Of a stretch of 64,000 bases of DNA, positions 12,257 through 64,000 are shown piece after piece. The position numbers and the translations under genes were made by a program. The stretch spans positions 62,001 to 126,000 of the forward strand of contig CALLLW010000040.1 of the NCBI GenBank assembly GCA_938007995.1, given 5' to 3'. The DNA is from an uncultured Granulosicoccaceae bacterium. GTDB taxonomy: Bacteria; Pseudomonadota; Gammaproteobacteria; Granulosicoccales; Granulosicoccaceae. The notes under the pieces were generated by a model, which worked only from the letters and a program-made list of their open reading frames with translations, did no database searches and was not told the origin of the DNA. Position 1 is the stretch's first letter. Each line of letters starts with the position of its first letter.

Positions 12257-12281
12257 ATAGTCAAATTCACCTGCCCCGATA

Positions 12282-12297: not shown

Positions 12298-12359
12298 CGT
12301 TGTCTACGATCAGTCAGCCACCACTGCACAGTAATTCAGTACGCCGCGATATTGCACTG

Positions 12360-12809: not shown

Positions 12810-12833
12810 GGCTTATATGTTTTGCAGACCTGG

Positions 12834-13394: not shown

Positions 13395-13432
13395 GCGCGA
13401 ACTATATAGTACCGACAAGGATTAGAACTGAA

Positions 13433-47084: not shown

Positions 47085-49676
47085 ATGTTCAACATCGTCA
47101 AGAAAGTTTCTGGTCTAGCTGCAATAGGCGCAACTCTGGCCACAGCACTGACACTCCTGTCTCCGATCGCAAACGCTCAACAAATTCCGCGCGAGCTGAC
47201 AAAGATACTTGCGATTGGTGACTCGATCACCGAAGGCTTCAGCGTCGATGGTGGCATTGAAAGTTATAGATTTCCGCTGACGTCGGAGCTGAACAACACA
47301 TCATGCAACTACCGAATGGTCGGAAGACGCACCTCAAATGTACCGGCAACAAGCTTCTTCTCACCGCATGAAGGTTACTCAGGCCACGGGGTCGAACATT
47401 TTTTAATGCAACTTGCTGGTAACCCCGGCATAGAATCCATCATCACTGACGCTGATCCGGATGTTGTGCTAATCCATCTCGGCTCTAACGACATGAACCG
47501 AAATCAGGACGAAGAACAAACCATTGGAGAACTGAATCTGCTTGTCAGCAGCATTTGGAATATCAAATCAGACACCCAGGTTTATGTGGCAAATGTAATT
47601 CCGTGGTTTGGCTCAAGCAATCTCAACCCAAACATCAGACAGTCCATAAATAGCCTTGGATCAAAGATCAATACTTGGATAACCGACTCAAATGACAGCC
47701 GACTTCACCTGGTTGACGTAAGGTCAGGTTTTATCCGCGCTTATATGCAAAGCGACGATATTCACCCGAACTCTGATGGTGACAACCACATCGCCGACGC
47801 CTTTCTGGCCGCTATTGAAGCAAACAATGACTGCCCCACCCCACCGGAAACCATCCTCGTTTCACCGGCAATACCAGACCCGAATAACCCAGGTGATACA
47901 TTTGACACATTGCCCGCCGCACACACATTCACCGGTAGTGCATTTGATATGGAGGGAGATGGCATACAGCGTGTTCGAATAGCAATAGAAGATAACAATC
48001 ACACGAACAGCTCAAACCAATGGTTTAATTTTGCGACCGGGGAATTCGGCTCATACAGCGAGACTATCGCCACTTTATCCAACCGGACAGCCACGTCCGC
48101 TACATGGAGTATTGACGTAGTACTACCCGGCGGCGGCGATTACCAGTTTTATGCATTGGCCGTGGATAACCTTGGTAATCAGAATTACTTCAATAGGGGG
48201 GTGTGGCCGGAGAATACCAGGTTCTTTACCGATGTTGACGTATCTGCACCTCAACCAACATTCACCACGCCGGAAACAGATGGTGCGATACTCACCTCCG
48301 GATCGATCAACCTCTCGGGAACAGCCACCGATACCGGCGGGTCAGGCCTCCAGGATATTCGAATTTCACTGCGTAACATATCTAGTGGAAGATGGTTTAA
48401 CTTCTCCAACAACAGTTTTACAGGAGCAATCGGTAACGGGGCAATTTCTGCCAACCAAACCAACACCTCGCCAGCAAGCGCAAGTTGGAACTACACATTT
48501 TCACTGACGCCAGGTGATTATTCAGTCCACATCAATGCCAGAGATAACGCTGGAAACACCTCAGGCTTCCAGCAACGGAAGTTTACAGTACTCCCTGACG
48601 ATACCCAGCCTCCCCAGGCACTTATTTCAACACCAGCAGCTAACGGCGACTCACTATCTACTAGCACAATTTTTACAGGCTCTGCGACCGATGCCGGTGG
48701 TTCTGGCTTCAATGACATTAGATTCGCTATCCGCAACCTTACAAACAACCGTTGGTATAACTTCAACAACAACTCGTTTAATGGCGCAGTCGGCAATGGC
48801 TCTATTGCTGCCAATCTCACTAATACTTCTATCGGCAACACCAACTGGAATGTCTCGCTTACTCTCCCCCCTGGAAATTACTCTGCCCACATCAACGCAA
48901 GAGATAATGCAGGAAACATTTCCGGATTTCGAAATCGTACATTCACTATCCTGCCCGACGACAACCAATCACCTGACGGCTTCTTTACAAATCCCGCAGT
49001 GAATAACGAAACACTCACTTCCAATATTACTTTTACTGGTACTGCGACTGATTCCGGTGGATCGGGGGTCAATGATGTCCTGTTTGCTGTCCGCGACGTC
49101 AACTCGGGCAACTGGTACAACTTCAACAACAATTCTTTCAATGGTGCTGTCGGTAATGGCTCTACCACTGCCAATCTGTCGAATACTACAACAAACAGTA
49201 CCAACTGGAATTATTCCCTCACACTACCTCCCGGTGAATATTCCGTTCATATAAATGTCAGAGACAACGCTGGTCTTATCTCTGGTTTTCAAAACCGTCG
49301 ATTTACAGTTATTCCCAACGACACTCAGTCACCCAATGGCAACATCACTACACCAGCAGTCAACAACGACACCCTGGCATCAAATATTATCTTCAGAGGC
49401 ACCGCCACTGATGGTGGTGGATCCGGCTTTAAGGATGTACTGGTATCAATAAGAGACAGGAGTACCGGCAATTGGTACAACTTTAACAACAATAGCTTCA
49501 GTGGTGCCACAGGCAATGGGGCGACTACCGCTAATCTAACTTTCACTTCCACTAATAACACCAATTGGAACTTCCCAGTTGCGCTTCCTTCTGGTAACTA
49601 CTCTGTTCACGTCAATATCCGAGATAATGCTGGAAACACCTCTGGTTTCCAGAATCGAAGATTTAGTGTGCCTTAG
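47085..49676 (+). CDS. Exported SGNH/GDSL hydrolase with C-terminal tandem repeats
   Basis: The 863-residue protein has a signal peptide (cleavage likely after Ala31 in PIANAQQ) and an SGNH hydrolase domain to about residue 245. Block I is ILAIGDSITEG with nucleophile Ser47; block III is HLGSNDMN; block V is DDIHPNSDGDNHIAD with the catalytic Asp/His pair. A divergent repeat follows at about 255-385. Then four copies of a 120-residue domain (consensus GTATDSGGSG, WYNFNNNSFNGA, YSVHINARDNAGNTSGFQNR) run to the C-terminus. Such enzymes usually deacetylate or de-esterify carbohydrates. The repeats look like Ig-like or carbohydrate-binding beta-sandwiches. No sortase or PEP-CTERM signal is present at the end. 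Confidence 0.88.
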   Translation: MFNIVKKVSGLAAIGATLATALTLLSPIANAQQIPRELTKILAIGDSITEGFSVDGGIESYRFPLTSELNNTSCNYRMVGRRTSNVPATSFFSPHEGYSGHGVEHFLMQLAGNPGIESIITDADPDVVLIHLGSNDMNRNQDEEQTIGELNLLVSSIWNIKSDTQVYVANVIPWFGSSNLNPNIRQSINSLGSKINTWITDSNDSRLHLVDVRSGFIRAYMQSDDIHPNSDGDNHIADAFLAAIEANNDCPTPPETILVSPAIPDPNNPGDTFDTLPAAHTFTGSAFDMEGDGIQRVRIAIEDNNHTNSSNQWFNFATGEFGSYSETIATLSNRTATSATWSIDVVLPGGGDYQFYALAVDNLGNQNYFNRGVWPENTRFFTDVDVSAPQPTFTTPETDGAILTSGSINLSGTATDTGGSGLQDIRISLRNISSGRWFNFSNNSFTGAIGNGAISANQTNTSPASASWNYTFSLTPGDYSVHINARDNAGNTSGFQQRKFTVLPDDTQPPQALISTPAANGDSLSTSTIFTGSATDAGGSGFNDIRFAIRNLTNNRWYNFNNNSFNGAVGNGSIAANLTNTSIGNTNWNVSLTLPPGNYSAHINARDNAGNISGFRNRTFTILPDDNQSPDGFFTNPAVNNETLTSNITFTGTATDSGGSGVNDVLFAVRDVNSGNWYNFNNNSFNGAVGNGSTTANLSNTTTNSTNWNYSLTLPPGEYSVHINVRDNAGLISGFQNRRFTVIPNDTQSPNGNITTPAVNNDTLASNIIFRGTATDGGGSGFKDVLVSIRDRSTGNWYNFNNNSFSGATGNGATTANLTFTSTNNTNWNFPVALPSGNYSVHVNIRDNAGNTSGFQNRRFSVP
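48240..49676 (+). repeat. Four tandem 357-360-base coding repeats
   Basis: Units start near 48240, 48597, 48957 and 49317, at a period of 360 bases (357 for the first). Units 2-4 are very alike at DNA level, for example around the segment encoding WYNFNNNSF, which points to recent duplication or ongoing recombination. All are in frame with the hydrolase. Confidence 0.93.
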
Positions 49677-49789
49677 CGCAAATTATTTTGACGAACCCAG
49701 CCGATTTAATGGCTGAGCTCTCTACTGTGTTTATCTGGATTGAAGACAAGCGAATTTATACAACAACCAGCCGAGTAGTAGCGGTCGAG

Positions 49790-50710
49790 TCAAGCGGATT
49801 CTTGGCTTGCCGCTGAGTCTAAAACAAACCTTAGACCTTGCTCGATAGAAATTCTCGTCTTCCATCCAAGTTCCCGATGTGCACGATCGCAGCATAATAT
49901 GTTTGAATGCACATCGAACTGGCGTTGCGGCTCATAGATAACTCTCAGCCTTGTATTTGCCACTAGTTCAAACTTACTAATTATTTCGTTTAACGAATAG
50001 CCGATTGACGAACCAATATTGAAAACCTGTTCACTACCTGTGTACTCGGTAGCCAACCTAACTGCCGTAGCAACATCCGCCACATAAAGAAAATCCCGAC
50101 GGACTTTTCCATCGCCCCAGATAACTATCTCTCTATTTACAATATGGGAGTTAACGACGGTACTTACAAACCCTTGCCCTTTCCGTATGTCTTGACCCAA
50201 TCCATACGGATTGGCTATTCGCAGTGAAATAGTCCTTGTATTGGAATAGTTCTCAAGCACCTTCAAATAGTTTTCGATTGCCAATTTTGAAGCACCATAG
50301 GCACTTATCGGTTGCGTTGCACTATCTTCCACTAGAGGCGAGGCATCGGAGTTACCGTAAACCGTACCTCCACTGGACGCAAAAATAACCTTTGATACAC
50401 CAAGATTAGCAGCGAACTCTGCTAATCTCACAGTGCACTCTACATGGGTATGTATATCTTCCGCAATATTTTCATTAGCAGTAGCTGGCAAACTACTAGG
50501 CGCAAGCAACACGACTGAGTCCACGTCAACAAAATATCTTGACACCTCACTCGAATTGTATAAATCCACAGCTACTTGCCTTACGCGTACCGCACCATCA
50601 TTATCGACGGTTCTAACCAACGATGTGACATCGTAGCCGTGACTTACGAGTTCATGACAAACATGTCTTCCTATAAACCCGTTGCCACCAAGTACAACGC
50701 ATTTTTTCAT
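49790..50710 (-). CDS. NAD-dependent sugar epimerase/dehydratase
   Basis: The 306-residue protein is an extended short-chain dehydrogenase acting on nucleotide sugars. It has the cofactor loop GGNGFIGRHV near the N-terminus, ASSGGTVYG with the catalytic Ser/Thr region, YGASKLAIENYL with the Tyr-Lys pair, and RIANPYGLGQ, followed by RRDFLYVADVATAV and FNIGSSIGYSLNEI. It is of the GalE/WcaG type; the exact sugar cannot be read. Its start shares bases with the methyltransferase stop (TAATG), so it is translationally coupled to that gene at the end of the glycan operon. Confidence 0.87.
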   Translation of the reverse strand: MKKCVVLGGNGFIGRHVCHELVSHGYDVTSLVRTVDNDGAVRVRQVAVDLYNSSEVSRYFVDVDSVVLLAPSSLPATANENIAEDIHTHVECTVRLAEFAANLGVSKVIFASSGGTVYGNSDASPLVEDSATQPISAYGASKLAIENYLKVLENYSNTRTISLRIANPYGLGQDIRKGQGFVSTVVNSHIVNREIVIWGDGKVRRDFLYVADVATAVRLATEYTGSEQVFNIGSSIGYSLNEIISKFELVANTRLRVIYEPQRQFDVHSNILCCDRAHRELGWKTRISIEQGLRFVLDSAASQESA

Positions 50711-51435
50711 TATATTTTTACTAGCTCTCTGCCACGTAGCTGATCTAAAGCCAGCAAACTATCCTGCTTTTGCCCTTTAATGATAACCGCTTTGCCCGCA
50801 TCAATCGAAATAGATTGAATGTTACTGCGGGTACCCAGATCAATAACTAATTCAAAAAGCAGATTGGTCATAGCAGGGTCTTTGTGCCACGCATGCGAGG
50901 TGTTCTGCATACCCGGCTTGTGGGCCCATGCCCAGTCTTCGATGATATAGGTACCACCAGCCGCCAACTTTGGAAACGTCATTTCAAAAGTGGACTTAGT
51001 TGCAGCATAGGTATGAGATGCATCATCCACTATAAGATCGATACCATTTGGAAACTCCACATCAAGAATCGAATTGATTGCACTTTCATCAGTCTGAGAC
51101 GTATTAAAGTACACGTTTACATTTCTAACTTCCTGTGAACAGTAATGCTCCAATGCATGGAAACTTTTCGCAATCTCGACACCTATAAGTGTGCTGGGCT
51201 TAAACAGCTTATCCATTAACACAAAGGAACCGCCCTGAAAAACCCCAATTTCGAGAATGGAATCAATTTTCTTTCTTTTTGCCAAACTAAAATAGTAGTT
51301 CAGCACAGGTGGGGATTTTACTAAAGTGAATGACCCCACCTCAGATGGACGTCGATCATACCCAGGGGTAGTATCGATCACGAACTCTGTACCTTCGAGT
51401 TTAAACTTGCTGGTCAATTCTTCTTTAGTTAACAT
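50710..51435 (-). CDS. Class I SAM-dependent methyltransferase
   Basis: The 241-residue protein has the Rossmann motif ILEIGVFQGGSFVLMDKLF, with the acidic residue of motif II in LIGVEIAKS, and DLIVDDASHTYAATKSTFE followed by GGTYIIEDWAWAH. This pattern matches cephalosporin-hydroxylase-like or Methyltransf_24-type methyltransferases that are common in O-antigen and exopolysaccharide clusters, where they methylate sugars. A metal-dependent mechanism is possible from the Asp-Asp and His residues. It lies 17 bases after the sulfotransferase-like gene and overlaps the epimerase. Confidence 0.82.
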   Translation of the reverse strand: MLTKEELTSKFKLEGTEFVIDTTPGYDRRPSEVGSFTLVKSPPVLNYYFSLAKRKKIDSILEIGVFQGGSFVLMDKLFKPSTLIGVEIAKSFHALEHYCSQEVRNVNVYFNTSQTDESAINSILDVEFPNGIDLIVDDASHTYAATKSTFEMTFPKLAAGGTYIIEDWAWAHKPGMQNTSHAWHKDPAMTNLLFELVIDLGTRSNIQSISIDAGKAVIIKGQKQDSLLALDQLRGRELVKI

Positions 51436-51452
51436 TAGGATTATAAACCTGG

Positions 51453-52433
51453 TTATTTATTATGTATGTGCTTATGCATTCCATATACCATCTCAGTTAT
51501 TAGAGCCCATTTATTCGCATCAACCTCATTCGGGGACGGCACGTGGTAATCATCGTTGACCGGCATAGGGAAAAGAGGGCCATCCAATCCCTCAAAATAC
51601 TTACTTTTTATCCATTCATTTGATGATTGATACCTTTCAATTATTGACCTTCTCTCTGCCCCGGTCAGCCTTGATTCACCCTTCACTTTCTTATGAGCGA
51701 GCTGACCATACTTCTGTATCATATTAAAGAATTGATTATCGTGTGGCCCTTCAAACAAACCTGGAGCTGACAGCGCAAGCTCCTCCACGGCTGTATTGTA
51801 GCTGGTATTTATATTTCCTTTTGATTTTGAAAACTCATTTGCATCAATAGCAAGCGCATCATAAAAGTCATCAACAACATCCTTATTAATCAACCTGTCC
51901 CTCTGATATACCCTTACTAATATTTTATGCGTGGCAATGGACTGCCATTCTTCAATAGGTACACGCCAGTCCCCTGCGACACCAATATTTCGGAGGAGCC
52001 ATTCGTAAAAACTCGCACCAGTTTTCAATCCCCACTGTTGCCAAGCCGACAAAAGGTAGTCATCTTGTCGTCTTACATAAATAACAACGCTAGATTCATG
52101 TTCTCGGATAGCTTCATGCAACAAGCCGTGCCATGAAAACACATTACTTAAGTTCTCTGCACTAAAGACTATTTTGTCGCAGTTTTTTTCTAAGGCAGCA
52201 CTGACGGCACAATCAATCCCCCTATTCAACTCGATCAAAGCTTCTGCCATATCCATCTGTTTGATTTTCTCAAACCACCACACATGATATCCGGTAACCT
52301 TGCCGTTTACCGTAAGATCTTCAGATGGAAGGTAGAAACCCTGCGACTCAAGTGCCACCTGGTTTGTCGCCAACGCATGCTGGATCGCAGAACTACCTGT
52401 TTTTCCGGCACCGATATGAAAATAGATATGCAT
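51453..52433 (-). CDS. Sulfotransferase-like protein (type A, first copy)
   Basis: The 326-residue protein has the 5'-phosphosulfate-binding loop near the N-terminus, FHIGAGKTGSSAIQHAL, resembling a P-loop that binds PAPS. It also has a 3'-phosphate-binding stretch around residues 115-130, VVIYVRRQDDYLLSAW. It belongs with two further genes here (55221-56297 and 57273-58190). Such proteins transfer sulfate to polysaccharide or glycan hydroxyls, though some members of this fold have other roles. It is 31 bases after the large bifunctional glycosyltransferase gene, suggesting that its acceptor is the same glycan. Confidence 0.8.
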   Translation of the reverse strand: MHIYFHIGAGKTGSSAIQHALATNQVALESQGFYLPSEDLTVNGKVTGYHVWWFEKIKQMDMAEALIELNRGIDCAVSAALEKNCDKIVFSAENLSNVFSWHGLLHEAIREHESSVVIYVRRQDDYLLSAWQQWGLKTGASFYEWLLRNIGVAGDWRVPIEEWQSIATHKILVRVYQRDRLINKDVVDDFYDALAIDANEFSKSKGNINTSYNTAVEELALSAPGLFEGPHDNQFFNMIQKYGQLAHKKVKGESRLTGAERRSIIERYQSSNEWIKSKYFEGLDGPLFPMPVNDDYHVPSPNEVDANKWALITEMVYGMHKHIHNK

Positions 52434-52464
52434 TTAGAAATGTATTTTCTAAAGGGGGCTCTTC

Positions 52465-54942
52465 CTATGCAATGATCACGCCTGTTTTTTCCTCCTCGTT
52501 AACGCAGTTAGCTTCTTTATCGTGCAATTCACTAAATATTTTAAGATAAGAGTCTGCTAACAAGTCGATACAGTACGACTCCCCGATAGCACAAGCAGTT
52601 TGTTGTTTTTGTGCGTATATCTCTTTGTCCTGTATATCCGACATCGCGTCTGTGAGCATATTTTGAAAATCATCATGCTGATGTTCTATCAAAACCCCTG
52701 CACTCATACCCTCTTTGACGATAATATTAGGTATCTCACCAATATCTGTTGATACGCAAGGCAGGCCATTCTGCAGAGCTTGAATAAGAATTAACGGGTA
52801 GGATTCCCCGGGGAACCTGGTCGGCAATAGACAACAATCACTCATTCTCATCAATCCGTGTATATTTGCCTGAAACCCAAGAAAGTATAGATCCTCGATA
52901 TCGGCATATTCATCTTCAAGATCTTCCTGGTATTCACTCTCACCGACGAGCAGTAACACAATATTGGACTGTGTCTTTTGAAGCTCTATAAATGAATTTA
53001 TTGCCTCCTCCCAACCTTTCTCTTTTACAGGTCGCGATACAAGAATAAAGACAAATGCATCATCATTTACTCCCAATACTTCACGTGTAATATGACAAGG
53101 CTTATGATCCACTGGTGTGGCATTAGGAAGTTTGGTAACCTCGGCCTTCGCCCAGGAACGCTTCCTAAGATGACGTAGATTTTTATCAGCGGTATACATC
53201 CAGTGATCCACATTTCTAACGATTTTAGTCATGTGATACTCATCTACCTCTGCAACCTCATACGTACCATGTAGCGTCACTACGTAAGGTATATCAGACT
53301 GAAATCCGAGTTCCAGAAAAAACAAACCTTCAACACCTATGTGATGTGAGTTTATTAAGGTAACACCCGTTTGTTTCAAAAACTCTTTACTACCCATCCC
53401 TCTCACGTCACTGGCTGCGTACACGGGAATTCTGCTATCCAGCAAACTATACATTTCGCTATTCACATCAGTAACATCGAGCGCTAGCATCGATACATTT
53501 ATACCGTTACGGACCAGAGCATTTGCAATAAATATAGGAAAATATTCGCCACCGCCAACATGAAAACCAAGAAATCCGATCAAGATGTGCTGACCGTTAC
53601 GCTTTGTACCCAATACTCTATCAAGGCTAATATGGTCGAATATACTCCCATCTTCCTTAAAAACTGAGTCAAATTGATCATTGAGCTGCTTGTAAAATCT
53701 CCAGGTTGTATCCTCTGTAATATTCCACTGTGATTTTACGTTTATCGCCAGTTTCTCATGCTCTTGATAATACCTCTCCCCTTTAAAACTTTTCACGGAA
53801 GTATTTGCACCATGTTGCCGGAAATACGTTGTCGCATCACAAACGTAGGCAAGCTTTCCGCCTCTGGACAATGCCAAGTAAAGGAACCAGTCACCTAGAA
53901 TGCTGAATTCCTGAGCGGTTTGCCAAATTGAATCCTCAATTTCCTGGCGCCTGATCAAGCAACCACCAACGTTTGGAATAATATTGTGTACAGAAAAAGA
54001 ACCAGAGAACCACGCTGCTGCCGGGCCTGACCGATTACTTCCCCAGATATTCGACTCGGCTCTCTCCCGGTACGCATCAAGGCCCTCTATTTCTCGACTA
54101 TCACTGTCTATAAATTGTATTTTACAAAATGCAATCATTACTGCTAAATCATCGAACGCCGGCACAAGCTTTTCCAGAAAGTCTGTTTCAGCTGAATCAT
54201 CGCTCTCACAAATCCAAACAAAGTCCCCCTGACACTGATCGAAGCCCTTACGCCATTGTTTGAAGACATTGCCAGAGTTCTGTGTATTCGGTATAAACTT
54301 GATCCTATTAGGAAACTTCTCTTGATATTCTTTTATAACATCTTCGCTTCCATCTGTGGACGCGTCATCAAGCACGATAATTTCAGTCGATTCGAAAGAC
54401 TGATACAGAATTGAATCCAGCCTCTCTGCTAAAAACTCTCTGTGGTTGTAGTTAGGTACTATAACAGACACTTTTGGAGAGCCCGATCTCTGTTGCTTGA
54501 ATTCCTCCAAACATTTGTCTAAAAAGTTTCGAAACTCGCTACTTTTTCTGTCTTTCTTATCAACACCTGCAACTGCTTTTCGCTCACGCCTAAGGTTCTT
54601 TAAATCAAGATCGGCTAGTTCATTAAGGCTTAAATTCTCAAGGTTAGGTAAGGGTGCTCTCCCCTCCAGATGACCGTACAATAGAAAGTGAGTAAATGGA
54701 TCGATCTCAGCTGCTGCGACATCTACATTTGTTTTTCGGTAGTAATCTGTACTGAACCAAGGAGCAGGGTCTAGCCCTTTAGCTGCTCCTACCTCAATAT
54801 AATGCATTATTAAGTCGTTAATCTCAGCTGGATCTGGAGATTCACTCTGAGATAAATAAAACTCGACGTTGAAATATTGACAAATCATACCCTCCACTTC
54901 AGATCTATTTTCAGTGATGGTATTTTGTTTATTGTTAATCAT
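52465..54942 (-). CDS. Bifunctional GT2-GT4 glycosyltransferase
   Basis: This 825-residue protein joins two enzymes. Residues 1-100 hold a small motif (GLDPAPWFSTDYYRKTNVDVA, FLLYGHLEGRAPLP) found at the N-terminus of many bacterial multi-domain glycosyltransferases. A GT2 domain runs from about 152 (KVSVIVPNYNHREFLAERL, DDASTDGS, ICESDDSAE with the metal-binding acidic residues). A GT4 domain of GT-B fold runs from about 450 (ILIGFLGFHVGGGEYFPIFI) with the C-terminal signature ILVSRPVKEKGWEEA and GESYPLILIQALQNGLPCVSTDIGEIP. It probably adds two different sugars to one chain. It is cytoplasmic, with no export signal. Confidence 0.88.
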   Translation of the reverse strand: MINNKQNTITENRSEVEGMICQYFNVEFYLSQSESPDPAEINDLIMHYIEVGAAKGLDPAPWFSTDYYRKTNVDVAAAEIDPFTHFLLYGHLEGRAPLPNLENLSLNELADLDLKNLRRERKAVAGVDKKDRKSSEFRNFLDKCLEEFKQQRSGSPKVSVIVPNYNHREFLAERLDSILYQSFESTEIIVLDDASTDGSEDVIKEYQEKFPNRIKFIPNTQNSGNVFKQWRKGFDQCQGDFVWICESDDSAETDFLEKLVPAFDDLAVMIAFCKIQFIDSDSREIEGLDAYRERAESNIWGSNRSGPAAAWFSGSFSVHNIIPNVGGCLIRRQEIEDSIWQTAQEFSILGDWFLYLALSRGGKLAYVCDATTYFRQHGANTSVKSFKGERYYQEHEKLAINVKSQWNITEDTTWRFYKQLNDQFDSVFKEDGSIFDHISLDRVLGTKRNGQHILIGFLGFHVGGGEYFPIFIANALVRNGINVSMLALDVTDVNSEMYSLLDSRIPVYAASDVRGMGSKEFLKQTGVTLINSHHIGVEGLFFLELGFQSDIPYVVTLHGTYEVAEVDEYHMTKIVRNVDHWMYTADKNLRHLRKRSWAKAEVTKLPNATPVDHKPCHITREVLGVNDDAFVFILVSRPVKEKGWEEAINSFIELQKTQSNIVLLLVGESEYQEDLEDEYADIEDLYFLGFQANIHGLMRMSDCCLLPTRFPGESYPLILIQALQNGLPCVSTDIGEIPNIIVKEGMSAGVLIEHQHDDFQNMLTDAMSDIQDKEIYAQKQQTACAIGESYCIDLLADSYLKIFSELHDKEANCVNEEEKTGVIIA

Positions 54943-55220
54943 ATTGAAAATAAATTCTCAAATAGCTAATACTAGAGAGCAGGTGTATTAAGGCACTTAA
55001 TACCAATGCACCGATAAAACAATTGCTTGCACATCAGCATTAGCAACATATTGACCATTCATCTAATCGGGATTCTATAAAGTACGTACGGATTGCTTTT
55101 TAACCACTCATGCAACAAAATTCGGACCTTGGTCAGTCAAAATATGAAACAATCAAGTTAGGCCGTCACACTGGGATTTAATGAGTGCCATTTTTTGGTC
55201 GTCAGAAATAACTTTTTAAT

Positions 55221-56297
55221 CTAAGCAGCTTTGGTATGTGCTTTCTTATTACTATTTCTCAAGTTTTCAAATCGAGATATTAACGCAGAGTGGCTAGCGC
55301 GCAGCTTAAACTCTTTTTCAATTTGCTCATGAAAACATCTGGCGATAGAATCGAAATATTCTGCTTCAAACCAAAGCTCTTCGCATGGCACTATCTTATT
55401 AAAGTTATACTGTCTCGGATCGTATATCTGGCCACCTAGAAACTCGTTTAGGCTTTGTGATTCATGTTTCGCATAATCGATTATTATTTCGCTGCATGCT
55501 CGTGTAACTGTAAATTTTGAACCACCTAGTTTTCCACAAAGCTGATGGCATAGTGCAGTCCACCTTAGCTCACTTACACCGTCGGGGCATTCCAATCTAT
55601 TTAGAGCATCTAAGGTCCACGCTCCTTGCTGCGTCATTGAAGAATTTCTCGCAACAATTGCCCCATGACCCTCAGTAATATCTCGAAATCCCGCCAATTC
55701 TAAACCGGACTCAGACAAAAACGACTCCAATATCGTCGAGTTTGAGCGACAAAGCACCTCAAAAGAAACAACCGAGATACTTACGTACGGAAAACCGTAT
55801 CGAGCGCGCTCAATAAGATTCTCTAACGGATAGAACCGAGGTTTTTTATAGTGTTCCGATAGGTTCTTTACACCGGACTTCAAGCACTGTTGTATAACAG
55901 ACACCGTATGTGCGTAGGGGTCTCGAACCGTAAAAACCAAGTGAACTTTAACAGATTGAAACAACAACCCCAGCCTCTGCCAGTCTTTGATACTGAAATT
56001 TGACAACGCCTCATCTGAAATAATAGCGTACTGACAAGGGGATTCCATGAACTCATTCAACACTCCTTCAACAACTTGTTCAACATCGTAAGTTTCACCA
56101 CCCGCACGTGGGCTCGTCACCTGTCCGTGGCGAATCATACGACGCAAAGTATCCCCTACACCATCACAGAAAGATGGATACAGAACCCCATATTCAGCAA
56201 GTACATTGCGGTTTTGGTTAAGAGCCCACTGAATAGATGATGTTCCTGTCTTTGGCAAACCGCCATGGATAATTAGTGTTTTATCGGAATTAGCCAT
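55221..56297 (-). CDS. Sulfotransferase-like protein (type A, second copy)
   Basis: The 358-residue protein begins LIIHGGLPKTGTSSIQWALNQN, a clear sulfotransferase phosphosulfate-binding loop. The 3'-phosphate-binding region VHLVFTVRDPYAHTVSVIQQ is near residue 117. It is related to the 51453 and 57273 genes in the start motif and in length but not closely, so these are a family of paralogues rather than recent copies. The C-terminus has many charged helices. A gap of 278 bases separates it from the GT2-GT4 gene; I see no promoter that I can certify there. Confidence 0.8.
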   Translation of the reverse strand: MANSDKTLIIHGGLPKTGTSSIQWALNQNRNVLAEYGVLYPSFCDGVGDTLRRMIRHGQVTSPRAGGETYDVEQVVEGVLNEFMESPCQYAIISDEALSNFSIKDWQRLGLLFQSVKVHLVFTVRDPYAHTVSVIQQCLKSGVKNLSEHYKKPRFYPLENLIERARYGFPYVSISVVSFEVLCRSNSTILESFLSESGLELAGFRDITEGHGAIVARNSSMTQQGAWTLDALNRLECPDGVSELRWTALCHQLCGKLGGSKFTVTRACSEIIIDYAKHESQSLNEFLGGQIYDPRQYNFNKIVPCEELWFEAEYFDSIARCFHEQIEKEFKLRASHSALISRFENLRNSNKKAHTKAA

Positions 56298-56621
56298 ATA
56301 ATATTTTTATACTAAGAACATAAATTGAACCCCTTCCGCGAAAGCATATCCCTGCCTTATCAATCCGCGAGGGCTCTTAATCGAAAATGCAATAACTTGG
56401 GTATCAGAAGTGTAGGCGGCGCAGTCTTAATTTTAGTCAGTATTCAGCGGGAAGAGTTAGGATTGGCTGATTCGAGCAATATACACGCCACCACTATAAC
56501 TCCACCTAATATAGATAGGCTTGGTTTTTGCTCATACACATGAGGCCTTGACGGCCAAAGTCGTGAGCTTGACAACCACGCAAATATGCTTCAGAAAACA
56601 TTGAGATATTAAGGTAAACAC
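56298..56621. other. Intergenic region between divergent genes
   Basis: These 324 AT-rich bases separate the second type-A sulfotransferase gene (minus) from a small plus-strand gene. A plus-strand open frame here has no family pattern and only a TTG start, so I do not call it. Promoters for both directions are expected, but no boxes are clear enough to mark. Confidence 0.35.
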
Positions 56622-56807
56622 ATGAAATCTAATCAGGAAAAAGATCTACGGTTACAACTCCGCGCTAATAGGCAAGAACGTGAAGCACTCACAAAGCTAT
56701 TAGCAGATACCAGGGCCAAAAAGCTTAAACTTGTTGAAGAACGAGACAAAATTCATAAGAAGGCGGTTAGCCTTGGTATTGAATTTGGAAAAAAAGCGAC
56801 TGCGTAA
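56622..56807 (+). CDS. Small basic coiled-coil protein
   Basis: The 61-residue product (QEKDLRLQLRANRQEREALT, then KLVEERDKIHKKAVSLGIEF) is almost entirely charged helix with no membrane segment. An AAGG stands seven bases before the ATG, a usable ribosome site. I do not recognise a family. It could be a real small gene lying within the glycan island, opposite to its neighbours, or a chance open frame. The regular heptad-like pattern and ribosome site make me favour a real gene, weakly. Confidence 0.4.
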   Translation: MKSNQEKDLRLQLRANRQEREALTKLLADTRAKKLKLVEERDKIHKKAVSLGIEFGKKATA

Positions 56808-56896
56808 AGATAGGCTGAATCGCAATATAACAGCACGATTCATTTCTGGAAAAAATAATCTTAGTACCACACTGCTGATACGACTCCCAGGCAGCC

Positions 56897-57136
56897 TCAT
56901 GCTAAAGAGGCTGCCTCTTCACCATGAACCATCTTTTCGTTACATAATATGTCCAACAACTCCTTACGTGCCAATCCGAATTCTCTAATCTTTCGATAGC
57001 AAATGCTCAAATCAACGTACACTCGCTGATTATCCGGACAAGATTCTTTGAGCTTTAAAAAAACATCTATTGCCTTCGTATGATTTCTGGCGTTTCGATA
57101 TTTTAACCCTTTAGCTCTTAGCGATTCAGATTCCAT
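56897..57136 (-). CDS. Short TPR-repeat protein
   Basis: The 79-residue product has two helix-turn-helix units typical of TPR motifs (LRAKGLKYRNARNHTKAIDVF, then NQRVYVDLSICYRKIREFGLARKEL). It is too short for a working TPR scaffold and may be the surviving end of a longer TPR-glycosyltransferase like the one at the right edge of the window, or an independent small protein. The start ATG has no clear ribosome site. It lies between two sulfotransferase genes on the same strand. Confidence 0.55.
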   Translation of the reverse strand: MESESLRAKGLKYRNARNHTKAIDVFLKLKESCPDNQRVYVDLSICYRKIREFGLARKELLDILCNEKMVHGEEAASLA

Positions 57137-57272
57137 GACTCATACATTTATTATTCAAGCATGGATCGGTAAATATATCAGCACAATACGAATATCTATC
57201 GCGGAAAAGAATCACCAAATCGGGAATTTTGAAAATTACAATATATTGCTTCGATACCATATTAAATCGGTC

Positions 57273-58190
57273 TTATAATCCCTCGAATAACAAGTGCTCT
57301 CGATTTTTTCTGTAGGCTTTCGATACAAGTCTATTGATTTCAACGAAACGTTCATACAATTCCTTTTGCTCCATTAGCGTGAGTAGCTCCGCTTCAGACT
57401 TGTTTTCTGGTCGAGAATTCACTTTTAATATTTCGGCTACCCTCCCGTTTTTCTCTGATATGTTATCACATTCATTTACTTTTATTAACTCCTCAACACC
57501 TTTAGCAGTTGGGGATCTATTCACAACCTTTGCTTCGTCTGGTACCACAATATCAGCCACCTCACTATCACATACAATATTTGCCACACGCCGAATATAC
57601 TCTGTCCGATCTTTAAACTCATATGGCACTACCTGTATATCAGACGGCAACAGAACCTCTGCCCAATGATTAAGTATTTTCAGGTAGTTGGCGCCTCCCA
57701 TATTGGCTGTTTTCAACCTGTCGTCCAGCCATTCCTTAAAGATTCTGGATTCACCACTTTTCACCGCCTGTAGATACGATGCCTCTAACCATCTGTCTTG
57801 CCGCCTCACACAGGCAACCAATCTCGTTTCGAAAGAATGAAACTGCTCGGAAATCACTTTTTGAAATTTGACTGGCAACTGCCCCCACCAGTACTCAGAG
57901 GAAAGTACTACATGTTCTACACGTTCTGAAGCAGCCTGCTCCATTATTTGTGAGAACGTATCTCTAAAGTACTGGGATCTTTCGCTCTCAACGCTCGACA
58001 AAACATCTCTATGCATACCCCACGCACCAGGATGTGCGGCTGCAAACAATAAGTGATGTGCATTTGACTTGGCACCTAACTCCGGATATAGCACACCAGC
58101 TTCAAGTAGTTTGTCACGCGCTTGAGCGAGATGCATCTGAAGAGCAGAAGATCCAGTTTTTGTAGAGCCAATATGGATAGTTATTTTCAT
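57273..58190 (-). CDS. Sulfotransferase-like protein (type A, third copy)
   Basis: The 305-residue protein has the PAPS-type loop ITIHIGSTKTGSSALQMHLAQ at its N-terminus and a 3'-phosphate-binding stretch near residue 120 (RLVACVRRQDRWLEASYLQA), followed by FKEWLDDRL. In both motifs it resembles the 51453 gene (FHIGAGKTGSSAIQ and VVIYVRRQDDYLLSAW), so these two are the closest pair. It lies 22 bases before the GT2-like gene's end on the same strand. It would act on a glycan hydroxyl in the cytoplasm before export, if sulfation is its role. Confidence 0.8.
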   Translation of the reverse strand: MKITIHIGSTKTGSSALQMHLAQARDKLLEAGVLYPELGAKSNAHHLLFAAAHPGAWGMHRDVLSSVESERSQYFRDTFSQIMEQAASERVEHVVLSSEYWWGQLPVKFQKVISEQFHSFETRLVACVRRQDRWLEASYLQAVKSGESRIFKEWLDDRLKTANMGGANYLKILNHWAEVLLPSDIQVVPYEFKDRTEYIRRVANIVCDSEVADIVVPDEAKVVNRSPTAKGVEELIKVNECDNISEKNGRVAEILKVNSRPENKSEAELLTLMEQKELYERFVEINRLVSKAYRKNREHLLFEGL

Positions 58191-58212
58191 AATATACGGT
58201 CATTAGCTACAA

Positions 58213-59127
58213 TCAAGCAGCGAGACCATGTTGCCGTGCAAAACATTCATGGATTCGGAAGTCGTTCCGAAGTATATTTTTCTCTTGTAGATCGACCAGA
58301 TCCTGCTCTGGAAGAACGAAAAGATCGTACTGTTCTCGGAGGGTTCCAGCCTTGTAACACTCGTACCAATGCCTCAGATGACTGCTAATAGCAGGCGAAA
58401 ACCTTTCATTTTTCTCAAGGCTTGAACCATAGTTGACAACCTTTTTCTCGAACTGCTCGAATGATCTGATCGGGTAGTGGAATATTTCAATATTTCGGCA
58501 TTCCGCTTTAGACCCCAGGTGTGCAGCACCATGGTTCCCCATTCCGATGGACTTTAAACCTTCCAGTCGAGTTATGACCTTTCCGGGGAGCTTCCTTATA
58601 ATGATATTTCCACTTTTCTCGCTCCATGCGGTCTCATTACAATCCGAATCTATGTTCCTGATAACTGCATAGTTGTTTTGGTGAAATTGATAGTCTTGTT
58701 TTGCCGTTGTTTCCTTTGACGCTATCATGTTCTGTCGTCTACAGGTAAGCACCCCGACATCACTCGATGCTGAGCTCACTGTTTCCAGTATACCTTTGCG
58801 GAGATCTTCAGCATCCGTTAGCCAGAATTCATCTGCGTCATTGTTTATAACCCAGTCACTATCATCATTTTCTCTTAGCCAGTTAGCCATTCGGGTGACC
58901 CATCGATCTTGATCAATCGTTAGCGATGGCTCATCAAATATTTTAATGTCAAACTCTTTAGATAGTTCAGCCAAAATCTCTCTTGTACCATCCAGCGAGG
59001 AATTATCAGTAACTACAAATTTGTCAACACCAGCAGCAGCGTGAAACCTGATGTTATGCTCAATTATATCTCCCTCGTCACGAGCGAGAATCGTCATCGC
59101 CAGTTTCATGTTTTTAATATTATCCAT
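58213..59127 (-). CDS. GT2-like glycosyltransferase
   Basis: From ATG 59127 the product has 304 residues; the frame is open upstream to a GTG at 59175, and ATG 59109 is also possible. The domain begins KLAMTILARDEGDIIEHNIRFH and has VTDNSSLDGTREIL and an acidic NNDADEFWLT motif. The DxD in this motif is the metal-binding centre of this glycosyltransferase group (Glyco_tranf_2_4 type). A histidine-rich HYPIRSFEQFEKKV stretch follows, common in these enzymes. The acceptor and donor sugars are unknown. Confidence 0.83.
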   Translation of the reverse strand: MDNIKNMKLAMTILARDEGDIIEHNIRFHAAAGVDKFVVTDNSSLDGTREILAELSKEFDIKIFDEPSLTIDQDRWVTRMANWLRENDDSDWVINNDADEFWLTDAEDLRKGILETVSSASSDVGVLTCRRQNMIASKETTAKQDYQFHQNNYAVIRNIDSDCNETAWSEKSGNIIIRKLPGKVITRLEGLKSIGMGNHGAAHLGSKAECRNIEIFHYPIRSFEQFEKKVVNYGSSLEKNERFSPAISSHLRHWYECYKAGTLREQYDLFVLPEQDLVDLQEKNILRNDFRIHECFARQHGLAA

Positions 59128-59181
59128 ATATTTTGTTACTAGTGAATTGCGTGTAATCGGAACGATACCGGTCACAAAACC

Positions 59182-59436
59182 TCAGTATTTGCTTGGAGGC
59201 CATCCAAACTGATATCTGACTTGGGGCAGCCCATGCTTCAAGAAAATTGAGCTCAACACATTAAGTATAGAATATTCGTGCCAGCGAAAAGATTCACTGA
59301 CCTTCAAGAGACGCTTTGCAGGTACGTTTTTTGCGCGAATCAAATACCGTATTCCACCTACCTCTCCCACAGCGCTATTCGAAAATATAACGAGCCACTT
59401 TGCCCAAACAAATGAAGGCAGTAACACTAGAATCAA
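59182..59436 (-). pseudogene. Possible remnant of a glycan-locus gene
   Basis: The 84-residue frame reads VGGIRYLIRAKNVPAKRLLK and then FRWHEYSILNVLSSIFLKHG, ending QFGWPPSKY. This looks like a genuine protein tail rather than noise. Its 5' end, however, overlaps the start of the plus-strand GT61 gene and lacks a sensible N-terminal domain. It may be the 3' end of a gene whose front was lost when the divergent gene arrived. I cannot name its family. It could also be a small intact gene or a chance frame. Confidence 0.3.
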
Positions 59437-60464
59437 GCACGAGTTTTCGAACGCGTTTACAGACGTTTCCGCCTGTAAAATATGATCTAATAAACCCGAC
59501 GCTCTCGAATGCAGAGAATCTGTCGGAAACTATAAAGAAACTGGTACTGGCAGAACATGATAAGCCGCTTGTAACATGCCCGGAAATCACTGTTTCCTGT
59601 CTTGATGACGTTGTCGTTAATCCGAATGGCAGCTTACTTGATTTATCTGGAAACGTAATAAATGAATCTGTGCATGATTTCCCACCAAAAATGGGTTACG
59701 AAAAAACCACCCCTCTCTCAACATCTGATCACCCCGGCATTCTTCTTTTTAAATACGGATTTAGAAACTACGGACACTGGCTCATAGAAATGCTGCCGAA
59801 GCTCCATTTTTTACAAAATACTCTACGGGACAATCCTGAGTGCAAAATTTTAATTGGTGATACAAAGGGCGCTATGAGAGACATTGCTTATTCCACTCTC
59901 GCGAAGTTTGGCGTGAACAAAGATTCGACAATTCCGATTGAGTACAGCACAAAGTTCAAGACGCTATTCTATTGCAGCCCGATTACAAAACACCCATTTA
60001 TGATGCGGCCTGAAATCACACAGTTTTATAGTAAACATGCTAAAAAATGCCTTGAGCCCAACAATAAGCTGTTTATTACACGACCTTTAAACGGCAACAG
60101 AGTCCTAAGTGACCTTAAGACTGTTGAATCGTATTTCAGAAATCGCGGCTACATCGTATTAAACCCCGGAACTCTGTCATTCGATGAACAAGTTGAGGTA
60201 TTCAGAAAAGCCGGTATAGTTGTCGGCATTGCAGGTGCCGCTATGACAAATACAGTATTTTGCGCCAAGGACACAAAGGTCGTACATATTGCCCCCCCTT
60301 CTATGCCAAACCTCTTTTTCTATCAGTTAGCATCAATTTGTAACCATCAATATTACGAATTTAGAGGCTATGCGGATACCGGGATGTTTGGTAATTCTTT
60401 CGACGCGAATTTTGATGAGCTATGTCACTTCATAGAAAATATTGATGCCAGTATTTCAAACTAA
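59412..60464 (+). CDS. GT61-family glycosyltransferase
   Basis: From ATG 59412 (TTG 59400 is four codons earlier) the product has 350 residues. It carries the DUF563/GT61 signature: FKYGFRNYGHWLIEMLPKLHFLQ in the middle, ILIGDTKGAM, KLFITRPLNGNRVLSD, and the C-terminal VVGIAGAAMTNTVFCAKDTKVVHIAPP. GT61 enzymes add pentoses or N-acetylglucosamine to glycans or proteins. It overlaps the next gene by 20 bases. It is transcribed opposite to most of the glycan block, and so may be a separate module. Confidence 0.87.
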   Translation: MKAVTLESSTSFRTRLQTFPPVKYDLINPTLSNAENLSETIKKLVLAEHDKPLVTCPEITVSCLDDVVVNPNGSLLDLSGNVINESVHDFPPKMGYEKTTPLSTSDHPGILLFKYGFRNYGHWLIEMLPKLHFLQNTLRDNPECKILIGDTKGAMRDIAYSTLAKFGVNKDSTIPIEYSTKFKTLFYCSPITKHPFMMRPEITQFYSKHAKKCLEPNNKLFITRPLNGNRVLSDLKTVESYFRNRGYIVLNPGTLSFDEQVEVFRKAGIVVGIAGAAMTNTVFCAKDTKVVHIAPPSMPNLFFYQLASICNHQYYEFRGYADTGMFGNSFDANFDELCHFIENIDASISN

Positions 60465-61068
60465 CACCGGTCTTGTCTTTTTTTCCCATATTCCAAAATG
60501 CGCTGGAATGAGTGTAGAGAAGGCCTTTTCGACATACCCGACACATTTGAAAAACCCGAACCTTCATGGCAAAAACCAGTTAGGCTTCCCTTGTTCGCCT
60601 CAGCATTTTCATGCAGAAATTATTCAAAAGATGTTTTCTGCTGAATCTTTTCGGTATGCTTTCACAGTAGTTCGTAATCCATTCGATAGGATTATCAGCG
60701 AGTATCGATTCAGAGCGGATATTGCAGCTCGACAAAAAACCGAATTACCAGAATTTAACGAATGGCTTGAGTCGTCCTTAATTAAATATGATCTTGATAA
60801 CTACTTATTAGATAATCACATACGACCACAAATTGAGTTTTTAATCCCTGGAATCGACATCTACAAATTAGAAATCGGAGCGGCGGAAATATTAATGCAG
60901 ATACAGCTTAAACTGCCAGAGCTTAAATTAAAGCCGCCAAATATAGCAAACGCTTCACGATCTGAAAGACCACAACTTAATGATGCTAGTATCAAATCAG
61001 TACAGAGTTTTTACGCAGAAGATTTCGAACGATTTGGATACGAGACTGAGTATCGACTGTACAAATAA
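60445..61068 (+). CDS. Sulfotransferase family 2-like protein
   Basis: The 207-residue product has the phosphosulfate loop FFSHIPKCAGMSVEKAFS and the 3'-phosphate-binding FTVVRNPFDRIISEYRF. This pattern is that of carbohydrate sulfotransferases of the HNK-1/Gal-3-O type (Sulfotransfer_2), different from the three type-A copies. It ends with SVQSFYAEDFERFGYE, typical of this group. The gene overlaps the GT61 gene by 20 bases, so the pair is translationally coupled and probably acts on the same sugar. It converges with the large gene at 61082. Confidence 0.86.
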   Translation: MPVFQTNTGLVFFSHIPKCAGMSVEKAFSTYPTHLKNPNLHGKNQLGFPCSPQHFHAEIIQKMFSAESFRYAFTVVRNPFDRIISEYRFRADIAARQKTELPEFNEWLESSLIKYDLDNYLLDNHIRPQIEFLIPGIDIYKLEIGAAEILMQIQLKLPELKLKPPNIANASRSERPQLNDASIKSVQSFYAEDFERFGYETEYRLYK

Positions 61069-61081
61069 TTGCTGAGTGCTT

Positions 61082-64000
61082 CTACGCAACTTTCGACTTT
61101 TGAAAAACAGTCTTTTCTCCATCTAACAACAGATAATCTTTAGAAAAAGACTGATAGCTTGCCCCTGTAACTATGCGCTCTACGTTGGCCTCGTTAAACT
61201 CAATCCCCGTAATTATATTCAGTATCGAATTGTATAGAGATTCGACATCTGATGTTAGCGGGACAGTAGCACCATAATTATGTTGCACTATCCTTTCAGA
61301 AAAGGCTCCAATATCAAAAGCAATTGGGAATACACCATTCTGAATCGCATCGGTCAAGGCGTAACAATATGTTTCGGGCCATTTACTTAAGAACAACCCA
61401 AAAGTTGGCTTATATTCACTTACTAGAGTACTTAGTGATTGGGCAGAATACTGACCCGCACAACTGACATTGTCATATCCCTCCATCCAGTCGTAGTCAG
61501 CCATAGTACCGAAAAATACAACTCTGATTCCGGGATGCCTTGTAGAGAGCAGCCAACACAGCTGCTTTATTTCATGCAATCCCTTGTGGTTCCCAATCAT
61601 TCCGAAAATCCCGACGATATGCTCCTCCAGGTTATCTGCTCGATAGCGCTGTATCGCTGAAGTCACTTCAAAAAAGTCCATATGGTACTTTGCTGAAATA
61701 TCTAAATCTGGATATCTTTCACTTATCCTATGCGCTGTATCTTGAGAAGGAGCGATAATTCGGCGTGCATCCGTTAGTAACGACTTGTTCCTTGTAAGCC
61801 ATAGATCAAGCCCGGTACTAATATTTTTCCAGTCCATATTAAAGCTATCATGCGTTCCAGCCACCTCTATGCACTTCACACAAACTTCACTCCCTGGCAA
61901 CCCGCAAAAACTACCGGAGGCATCAATTAAATTTATTCTTGGACATACGTACGAGTAATCATGTAGAACTACGGTGTAGCCGCTGGACAGTTGCGTGATT
62001 CGATCTACCAATTCTGATTGAAAATTGAAAGTCGAATTAATAACAACATCCATAAAATGAAACTTGTCAAGATCAGCTTTTAGATTCTCTATTTCATCAT
62101 TCCGATAAACGCAATATAGCGACTCAGTTGGGTCACAAACTATGATATCTCTATTCTGAGTGGTCAGGTAGATCGAGCCAATTCCTTCACTGGCAAGCTG
62201 CTGTACACTTCTGTTTAAATATTCAGTGGTTCCTCCTCCCAGACTGTGGGTAACAAACAATACAAATCTGTTACCTGCGTTACCAAAGAGCCTGAGCTGT
62301 TGAAGTCGATTTCTAGACAGTCTTGATTCACCCTCATTCTTGATGTAATTCTGAATGAGACGGTCATACTCCGGATATATTCTATTTAACTTCTTCAGAT
62401 TTTTTCGTATTTGCTTGTCACGCTTCTCATTGCCAAAAGACACTGAGCCTACGTGGCCAACGTACATTCCATGATATGCACCGATCTTCCAACCATGCAT
62501 TTTTACACGCTGACAATAATCATTCTCCTCACCGTAGCCAAGTCCCCAGTTTTCCTCATCGAGCATACCAACACTTGCTATAACTTCCCCTCTGACAAAC
62601 ATACAATAACCATGTCCGGTAGGCACTTCGAATATTTCGTTGGCAGCGTGCTTTCTGAGCAGAAAATCTATTTCTGACAGCTCTGAGTTGTCACTTATCG
62701 TATTCTCAGTCAAGGTCAGCGGAAAGCTGAATATGGTGGCATTGTTAGACAGGGGCGTCACTACACCATACTGATCATGGAGTTGAGCAGTACTATGAAA
62801 TCTGTCAATAAAATTCAGCGGTACGATTGTATCGGAATTAAGAATAACCACATCTTTGAATTTTCTGGCTTGAATTCCTTTATTGACAGTCTTTACAAAT
62901 CCTCTGTTTATATTGCTATTAATAACAGACACGTTTGGGTTCAACAATTCGAGATCTTTCAGATAAGTCTCTACATTACCATCAGTGCTTCTGTCATTAA
63001 CAAGCAGTACCTCATGATCTACTGAATTTTCAGAGCTTAAAACACTGTCTACACAGCGGCTTACATCTTCAAGACCATTATAAACAGGTATTATTACACT
63101 AATGCCATCAGTAAAATTTGAAATATTCTGATTGTTACATGCAGTATGCTCGGTCAGCACATCAGATTTGTCTCTGATAACCTTGAAAATTTTCTCGACA
63201 GTGGCAGCTGTGAACCGGTTTTTACCGAGAACTTCCGACATCCCAACTTCCAATTGCTGAATGGCCTCTTCAATACGCTGTATCTTCACTGGAGTTCCAA
63301 GCACAGCAACACCCGAGACGGGATTTCTAAATTCAATTTTATTTGCGATTATGTGATCATCCCACGAGAACTCAAACCCACACTGAGTGTCGCCCAGATT
63401 ATAGTGTTCAAGTACATCCGGGCGATCAAGCAAGGTTGGTAACTTAGCAACAAACTCATCATTAATGTATAGATCCAGTTCTTTTTTTCCATCTACCAAA
63501 CTTGCGTACCAACCGTGAATTCTGTTTGCACCCTTATATTCAAAATCCCCCAGATACAGAGATCTGTCACTCTCAAAGAGCTTGTTTTTTTTGTATCGTG
63601 CAGAGAAAAAACTATCGATTTTTGACTTTTCTTTTATCTCTAATAGAAAACAGTCTGCCTTATCATCTACATAACAGCATGGCAGGACCAGTAGGTATTT
63701 TCTAGATGGCCCATCTGAGAATTCACCAACTAGTCGAGCATATCGCACCATGCCATTACTGACTCGGAAACCGTTTATAAACAGTTCAAAGTCTGACAAG
63801 CTTTGATTATCTAACAATGTAAATGACGGAATCCCGTCGTCAGCGCCTAATCGGCGCGATTGAAATGACTTTTCATACAATTGATCCAGCCGAATGTCGT
63901 TCGGGTTCTGTACCTTCCATTTCTCTATTTTACTAATCGCAAGTTGCGATTCTCCAGAATAAATACAAGCAAGTGCCATTTTTTCTACCAATGGCGCTCT
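61082..64000 (-). CDS. TPR-GT2-GT4 glycosyltransferase, truncated by window edge
   Basis: The gene runs off the right edge; 972 residues are visible. The first 45 or so show a TPR-like helical pair (ALACIYSGESQLAISKIEKW). Next comes a beta-rich region of unknown function (to about 290). A GT2 domain follows near 297 (ISVIIPVYNGLEDVSRCVDS, NDRSTDGN, ILNSDTIVP with a DxD-like acidic pair). A GT4-like domain starts near 575 (FVLFVTHSLGGGTTEYLNRS) and has the GT-B motifs IVGIFGMIGNHKGLHEI and WPETYCYALTDAIQNGVFPIAFD. Its arrangement parallels the 52465 gene, and both are likely chain-extending enzymes of the same polymer. The true start is outside the window. Confidence 0.87.
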   Translation of the reverse strand, partial: RAPLVEKMALACIYSGESQLAISKIEKWKVQNPNDIRLDQLYEKSFQSRRLGADDGIPSFTLLDNQSLSDFELFINGFRVSNGMVRYARLVGEFSDGPSRKYLLVLPCCYVDDKADCFLLEIKEKSKIDSFFSARYKKNKLFESDRSLYLGDFEYKGANRIHGWYASLVDGKKELDLYINDEFVAKLPTLLDRPDVLEHYNLGDTQCGFEFSWDDHIIANKIEFRNPVSGVAVLGTPVKIQRIEEAIQQLEVGMSEVLGKNRFTAATVEKIFKVIRDKSDVLTEHTACNNQNISNFTDGISVIIPVYNGLEDVSRCVDSVLSSENSVDHEVLLVNDRSTDGNVETYLKDLELLNPNVSVINSNINRGFVKTVNKGIQARKFKDVVILNSDTIVPLNFIDRFHSTAQLHDQYGVVTPLSNNATIFSFPLTLTENTISDNSELSEIDFLLRKHAANEIFEVPTGHGYCMFVRGEVIASVGMLDEENWGLGYGEENDYCQRVKMHGWKIGAYHGMYVGHVGSVSFGNEKRDKQIRKNLKKLNRIYPEYDRLIQNYIKNEGESRLSRNRLQQLRLFGNAGNRFVLFVTHSLGGGTTEYLNRSVQQLASEGIGSIYLTTQNRDIIVCDPTESLYCVYRNDEIENLKADLDKFHFMDVVINSTFNFQSELVDRITQLSSGYTVVLHDYSYVCPRINLIDASGSFCGLPGSEVCVKCIEVAGTHDSFNMDWKNISTGLDLWLTRNKSLLTDARRIIAPSQDTAHRISERYPDLDISAKYHMDFFEVTSAIQRYRADNLEEHIVGIFGMIGNHKGLHEIKQLCWLLSTRHPGIRVVFFGTMADYDWMEGYDNVSCAGQYSAQSLSTLVSEYKPTFGLFLSKWPETYCYALTDAIQNGVFPIAFDIGAFSERIVQHNYGATVPLTSDVESLYNSILNIITGIEFNEANVERIVTGASYQSFSKDYLLLDGEKTVFQKSKVA

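Follow-up and report, generated by a model that had tools for sequence, protein, structure and literature searches.

Here we describe an island of ten genes at the right end of a 64,000-nt stretch of DNA (the window) from an uncultured Granulosicoccaceae bacterium, comprising bases 62001–126000 of contig 40 in a 4.69-Mb draft genome of 94 contigs. The island, roughly 15 kb long, starts at 49.79 kb, ends at about 64.58 kb and thus crosses the right window edge. We hold with moderate confidence that it is a horizontally exchanged cassette that produces a surface polysaccharide bearing multiple sulfate groups and O-methylation; the glycan, its acceptor, its exporter and its location at the surface are what we infer. 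The genes encode a GalE-like epimerase, an O-methyltransferase, two GT2–GT4 glycosyltransferases, a GT2_4/GT92-like and a GT61 glycosyltransferase and four sulfotransferases.

The island stands apart in composition, as had been noted in an original prediction made from the sequence alone. Its GC content (guanine plus cytosine) is 0.415 over positions 49790–64000, compared with 0.501 for positions 1–49700 and 0.496 for the right flank, and its GC content at third codon positions is 0.396 as against 0.517. Codon use, which the prediction had proposed to compare, differs in the same way, with a Karlin codon distance of 0.305 for the island and a null maximum of 0.186. The 5-kb windows of the island span 0.406–0.424, whereas none of the other 309 sampled in the genome, polysaccharide loci included, falls below 0.453. 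The composition is foreign to the host, and it has the look of horizontal acquisition.

Genes of the island

The features are given below by position in the window and strand, with E values for family and structure matches (SAM, S-adenosylmethionine; TPR, tetratricopeptide repeat; aa, amino acids).

49790–50710, minus: NAD-dependent sugar epimerase, closest to UDP-glucose 4-epimerase (GalE-like); PF01370, 6e-49; nearest PDB chain 4zrm, 2e-39
50710–51435, minus: SAM-dependent methyltransferase, probably a sugar O-methyltransferase; Methyltransf_24, 2e-8; RMNT_CmcI, 7e-5
51453–52433, minus: ST1, HIGxxKTG-family putative sulfotransferase; family profile matches PDB sulfotransferases; own Sulfotransfer_1 match, E 0.063; motifs FHIGAGKTGSSAIQ and RRQDDYLLS
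52465–54942, minus: GTA, fused GT2–GT4 glycosyltransferase; Glycos_transf_2, 2e-29; Glycos_transf_1, 7e-20 (both above cut-off)
54943–55220, no strand: gap of 278 bases without a convincing gene; fragments of 25–37 aa only
55221–56297, minus: ST2, divergent member of the ST1 family; no Pfam match alone; member of family profile A3/A4; structure model
56298–57272, no strand: gap of 975 bases; stop-to-stop listing gives a TPR-like 80-aa stretch (56897–57139, minus) and a 64-aa stretch (56613–56807, plus)
57273–58190, minus: ST3, divergent member of the ST1 family; no Pfam sulfotransferase match alone; family profile; structure model
58213–59175, minus: GT2_4/GT92-like glycosyltransferase; Glyco_tranf_2_4, 1e-13; Glyco_transf_92, 3e-8; nearest PDB chain GmaR, 4e-4
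59400–60464, plus: GT61 glycosyltransferase; Glyco_transf_61, 2e-23
60442–61068, plus: ST4, Sulfotransfer_2-type carbohydrate sulfotransferase; PF03567, 4e-12, 47.3 bits against a cut-off of 22
61082–64000 and on to about 64582, minus: GTB, weak N-terminal TPR, GT2 and weak GT4; Glycos_transf_2, 5e-15; Glycos_transf_1, 1e-4

Each of the ten genes is a full-length open frame, and the spacing of many resembles that of an operon; the ST4 gene overlaps the GT61 gene by 23 nt. The GT2-like, GT61, epimerase and methyltransferase genes named in the prediction are all present by Pfam, and an NCBIfam search of the island proteins returned nothing more specific. The epimerase scores under the TIGR01179 GalE equivalog cut-off. 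The PDB chains nearest to the methyltransferase are macrolide-tailoring sugar O-methyltransferases (demethylmacrocin O-methyltransferase, 2e-6, and 3ssm, 1e-5). Two fused GT2–GT4 enzymes had been proposed; GTA is clearly one, whereas in GTB the GT2 domain passes its cut-off and the GT4 half does not (22.4 against 26.4 bits). GTB begins near 64582, 582 bases beyond the window edge, and is 1166 aa long with a weak TPR_19 match (0.008). The solved chain nearest to its GT2 profile is the chondroitin synthase K4CP, and a genome of the same genus, G003, encodes a full-length counterpart that is 44% identical over the alignment.

The open stretches in the 975-base gap are probably debris or small genes, and the gap may be what is left of a TPR gene, the TPR likeness of the 80-aa stretch being a judgement by eye. 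Promoter and terminator matches showed no excess over shuffled sequences.

The sulfotransferases

The four sulfotransferase-like genes fall into two types, as predicted, and fare favourably overall against sulfotransferase profiles. ST4 passes the Sulfotransfer_2 model, whereas ST1, ST2 and ST3, like several other members of their family, have no Pfam sulfotransferase match above cut-off and are recognized through a profile of that family. This profile was required because single-sequence phmmer searches of the PDB, with ST1 alone or ST4 alone, gave chance matches only. Built from 14 members (A3), it matched 3rnl (6e-10) and human SULT2A1 (2e-5), and none of the 23 PDB matches listed is a kinase.

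In sulfotransferases of the SULT type, the 5′-phosphosulfate-binding (5′-PSB) motif is a loop containing a lysine, and the 3′-phosphate-binding (3′-PB) motif is Arg-x7-Ser. The hallmarks of the ST1–3 family are HxGxxKTG(S/T)(S/T)xxQ near the N terminus, an S-x-E motif and an invariant Arg. The H, G, K and R columns of the family alignment are invariant, HxGxxKTG in ST1–3 corresponds to the 5′-PSB loop, and a 3′-PB-like R-x7-S motif occurs in ST1, ST2, ST3 and ST4, in ST3 fitting from the second Arg only (R130–S138). Among the best Foldseek matches of the ST2 model (pLDDT 71.5) are StaL, NDST1, 3rnl, Teg14 and 3-OST5, at modest E values of 1e-3 to 4e-3; those of the ST3 model (pLDDT 82.5) are mixed, with P-loop kinases ranking above retinol dehydratase and SULTs. 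Judged by their sequences, ST1–3 represent a divergent HxGxxKTG sulfotransferase family that Pfam overlooks, with predicted dependence on 3′-phosphoadenosine 5′-phosphosulfate (PAPS). We give scarcely any credence to ST1–3 being other P-loop transferases or kinases, with only one true sulfotransferase left, for which the missing Pfam matches and the zeta-toxin and adenylate kinase folds among the first entries of the ST3 list would speak, but which conflicts with the kinase-free family profile, the mostly sulfotransferase matches of ST2 and the 3′-PB-like motif in each protein.

In a tree whose long branches make the placements unsure, ST1–3 each form a deep lineage of their own, and their identity to any relative found does not exceed 28%; a search of genome contigs with ST3 as sole query found no relative. 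Being scattered in that tree, the three are not obvious products of local duplication, and we set that origin aside. Their separation and distance would fit distinct acceptor positions. A defence role for the sulfotransferases was dropped, as PADLOC returned nothing for them.

The concentration of these genes is exceptional. A six-member ST profile found three ST1-type genes in the genome, all inside the island; a wider profile added one weak match, on contig 43, and one of the genome's four Sulfotransfer_2 genes is in the island. For four of about seven sulfotransferases to fall within ten adjacent genes by chance has a probability of about 2e-6, assuming 4300 genes. Across the family, the six-member profile matched 29 of 48 genomes but reached three or more matches in only two, this one and G018; across the class, 54 of 370 genomes had any match and seven had three or more, in a count that scored no more than five candidates per genome and in which some matches are fragments of a single gene. 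These counts bear out the view that clusters so rich in sulfotransferases are uncommon, although sulfated capsule and exopolysaccharide clusters with two to three have been published (PMC11641403, PMC8205485). GTB-like proteins are widespread in Proteobacteria and beyond, and an ST1-type gene is also found at 11 of 80 named GTB-like loci. Separately, contig 17 of a 1.9-Mb gammaproteobacterial genome, G037, encodes unusual-looking proteins of 1135 and 763 aa with three and two tandem sulfotransferase domains (L231:7144–10551 and 11766–14057), adjoining other glycan-type genes.

A variable polysaccharide locus

We examined relatives around the flanking genes for ETF-QO, the SGNH hydrolase and the ASH/GSDH protein; both flanks lie close together on one contig only in G006 and G010. 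In G006, ETF-QO, SGNH hydrolase and ASH/GSDH share a contig, and between them lie methyltransferases, a Sulfotransfer_2 gene and a TPR–GT4 gene. In G010, Wzc, Wzb and Wza together with a UDP-xylose-synthase-like gene separate ETF-QO from the ASH/GSDH gene, and in G009, G011 and G013 such a UDP-xylose-synthase-like gene adjoins ASH/GSDH, with or without glycosyltransferase and epimerase genes, away from ETF-QO. (This label reflects a by-eye likeness to UDP-glucuronate decarboxylases; Pfam gives the epimerase family only.) Because the content differs among these five genomes, the place is a variable polysaccharide locus beside a conserved ASH/GSDH gene, and the island is one of its alleles. The G006 locus also holds, adjoining ETF-QO, a 786-aa ST1-type sulfotransferase fused to many TPRs (L071:625–2985).

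A second island, with five sulfotransferases of three types, occurs in another genus of the family (G018 contig 4; L028, 25000–44999). It shares a GTB-like protein, GT2–GT4 and GT61 enzymes, three HIGxxKTG sulfotransferases and one Sulfotransfer_2 protein with the island described here, but differs in gene order and in having an additional Sulfotransfer_3 protein, WbsX and an AlgX-type acetyltransferase.

Directly left of the island, at 47085–49676, is a gene for a secreted SGNH hydrolase with Ig-like repeats that has many variable relatives in the genus. To the right of GTB the contig runs for about 10 kb, encoding a secreted ASH/GSDH protein, a 3-hydroxy-D-aspartate-aldolase-like protein, the dimethylsulfoniopropionate (DMSP) lyase DddP and a trimethylamine-methyltransferase-like protein. 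DddP (L002:5408–6754), about 4 kb from the island, scores 897.8 bits against an NCBIfam cut-off of 600 and probably points to an algal association. Granulosicoccus reportedly lives on kelp, with genomes that carry cysNC and DMSP genes (PMC9238374); our literature search found no paper linking the genus to sulfotransferases. The host is probably a Granulosicoccaceae-like, alga-associated bacterium.

Biosynthesis, alternatives and known systems

Family searches and reading of stretches of other contigs located PAPS and export genes away from the island. CysD and a CysN–CysC fusion (CysNC) are on contig 36. A Poly_export protein, an ABC ATPase and an ABC-2 permease (KpsMT-type) lie on contig 8 beside a sulfotransferase and a double-GT2 gene. 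Wzx-type proteins are encoded on contigs 27, 23 and 6, a Wzy_C-like protein (30.1 against a cut-off of 31.7) with Wzc and Wza on contig 27, and initiating transferases on contigs 23 and 28. As these genes are unlinked to the island, supply and export would act in trans. Two of these loci have further features. The contig 36 CysD frame (L026:6802–8595) carries an N-terminal extension of about 290 residues that gives an IS630-transposase-like match, perhaps an in-frame remnant of an upstream transposase. On contig 8, the Sulfotransfer_2 gene overlaps the double-GT2 gene (L219:6362–9653), and many genomes of the genus probably have a counterpart; this Sulfotransfer_2/double-GT2/KpsMT-like locus is a second sulfated-capsule candidate.

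In the pathway we envisage, GTA, GTB and the GT2_4/GT92-like and GT61 enzymes would build up, on a carrier in the cytoplasm, either an oligosaccharide or a repeat unit, with the epimerase, to judge from its family, providing a 4-epimerized sugar nucleotide. The methyltransferase would cap a sugar hydroxyl by O-methylation, and the four mutually distant sulfotransferases may each act on a different hydroxyl, using PAPS from the CysD–CysNC encoded elsewhere. Export and anchoring could then proceed through systems present on other contigs, either the KpsMT/Poly_export capsule exporter or Wzx/Wzy–Wza–Wzc. The order of these steps and the product are likewise putative.

Several observations weigh against this interpretation. 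A lack of export or assembly genes nearby had been named as refuting the prediction, and in the strict sense that is the outcome, although the required functions are encoded in trans: no PAPS, Wzx/Wzy or ABC polysaccharide exporter gene was recognized within the window or over the remaining 10.7 kb of the contig, and the island has no polymerase or initiating transferase linked to it. In addition, ordinary sulfate assimilation too draws on PAPS synthesis, and the genome is a draft in 94 contigs. We recognized no tRNA gene or border repeats (within 49400–64000) and no integrase open reading frame or mobile element. The island genes fall into several blocks that occupy both strands, and gene-free gaps occur among them; partial decay of the island is therefore possible. 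The predicted sulfated, methylated surface glycan nevertheless remains the best reading, in keeping with the foreign composition and the macrolide sugar O-methyltransferase relatives; what has fallen away is linked export, and sulfation, polymer and surface location stay conditional.

The same activities might instead modify lipopolysaccharide (LPS), either its core or an O-antigen that would be sulfated and methylated, by way of the O-antigen-ligase-like and Wzx proteins encoded in the genome. Contig 27 encodes both Wzx and the Wzy/O-antigen-ligase-like protein, and a sulfotransferase has been reported within an O-antigen operon of Vibrio sp. KMM 8419 (PMC11641403), but the Wzy_C match is slightly under its cut-off and no LPS core or O-antigen marker gene is in or beside the island; we regard this as unlikely. 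The lack of a polymerase, flippase and initiating transferase in the island would also suit glycosylation and sulfation of a protein or appendage, such as flagellin, pilin or the neighbouring secreted repeat proteins, with no polymer made. TPR modules, which GTB shares with a GT4 protein and a sulfotransferase of relatives, point the same way, as do the match of the GT2_4 enzyme to the flagellin glycosyltransferase GmaR and the flanking secreted Ig-repeat SGNH hydrolase and ASH/GSDH proteins. The GmaR match, however, is a weak one to a generic GT2 region, the window has no recognized flagellar gene, polymer export systems abound in the genome and G010 has Wza–Wzb–Wzc at the same place, making this explanation decidedly unlikely. 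Finally, the gaps of 278 and 975 bases with their fragments, the mixed strands and the unlinked export genes could mark a partly decayed, non-functional pile-up of transferred genes, a very unlikely state for ten full-length open frames, many with operon-like spacing, and a GTB with a full-length counterpart in the genus.

We retain the polysaccharide cassette as the preferred reading, and known systems offer close parallels. PAPS genes within the cluster have been described as a hallmark of sulfated polysaccharide clusters (PMC11641403). Measured against sulfated capsular polysaccharide (CPS) and exopolysaccharide clusters, the island has glycosyltransferase and sulfotransferase genes together but lacks PAPS and export or polymerization genes. 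The sulfated CPS cluster of Vibrio sp. KMM 8419 (PMC11641403) is likewise marine and gammaproteobacterial, combines glycosyltransferases with sulfotransferases, has a GC content below that of its genome and varies among strains; it is, however, a complete 95-kb locus that includes three sulfotransferases, cysNDC and an ABC exporter and for which a structure has been solved, whereas the island has four sulfotransferases in about 15 kb, without linked PAPS or export genes. The sulfated CPS cluster of the marine gammaproteobacterium Cobetia marina KMM 1449 (PMC11766843) also unites glycosyltransferase and sulfotransferase genes, but includes KpsETMD, KpsSC and PAPS genes and has a known product. 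Several glycosyltransferases accompany sulfotransferases of distinct subfamilies in the synechan xss cluster of Synechocystis (PMC8205485), which differs in having two sulfotransferases, Wzx/Wzy/PCP inside, a plasmid location and genetic and chemical proof; its authors describe many cyanobacterial sulfotransferase clusters as partial. A putative glycosaminoglycan-like cluster of Pontiella sulfatireligans (PMC7356697), from another phylum, shares GT2/GT4 genes, a methyltransferase and a sulfotransferase, but only one of the last. The island is a partial cluster of an already known type with an unusually high number of sulfotransferases.

Outside the cyanobacteria, the genes for a sulfated bacterial polysaccharide have so far been established in few cases. 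The 15-kb cassette, with four sulfotransferases of separate lineages, three of them unrecognized by Pfam, is a compact source of candidate polysaccharide sulfotransferases. A broader proposal, speculative and on balance unlikely, is that Granulosicoccaceae-like alga-associated bacteria swap compact sulfotransferase–glycosyltransferase cassettes at a fixed locus, sharing PAPS and export machinery encoded elsewhere, to build densely sulfated, methylated coats that might mimic the sulfated polysaccharides of their algal hosts. The island itself suggests that these marine bacteria can exchange surface sulfation as a trait.

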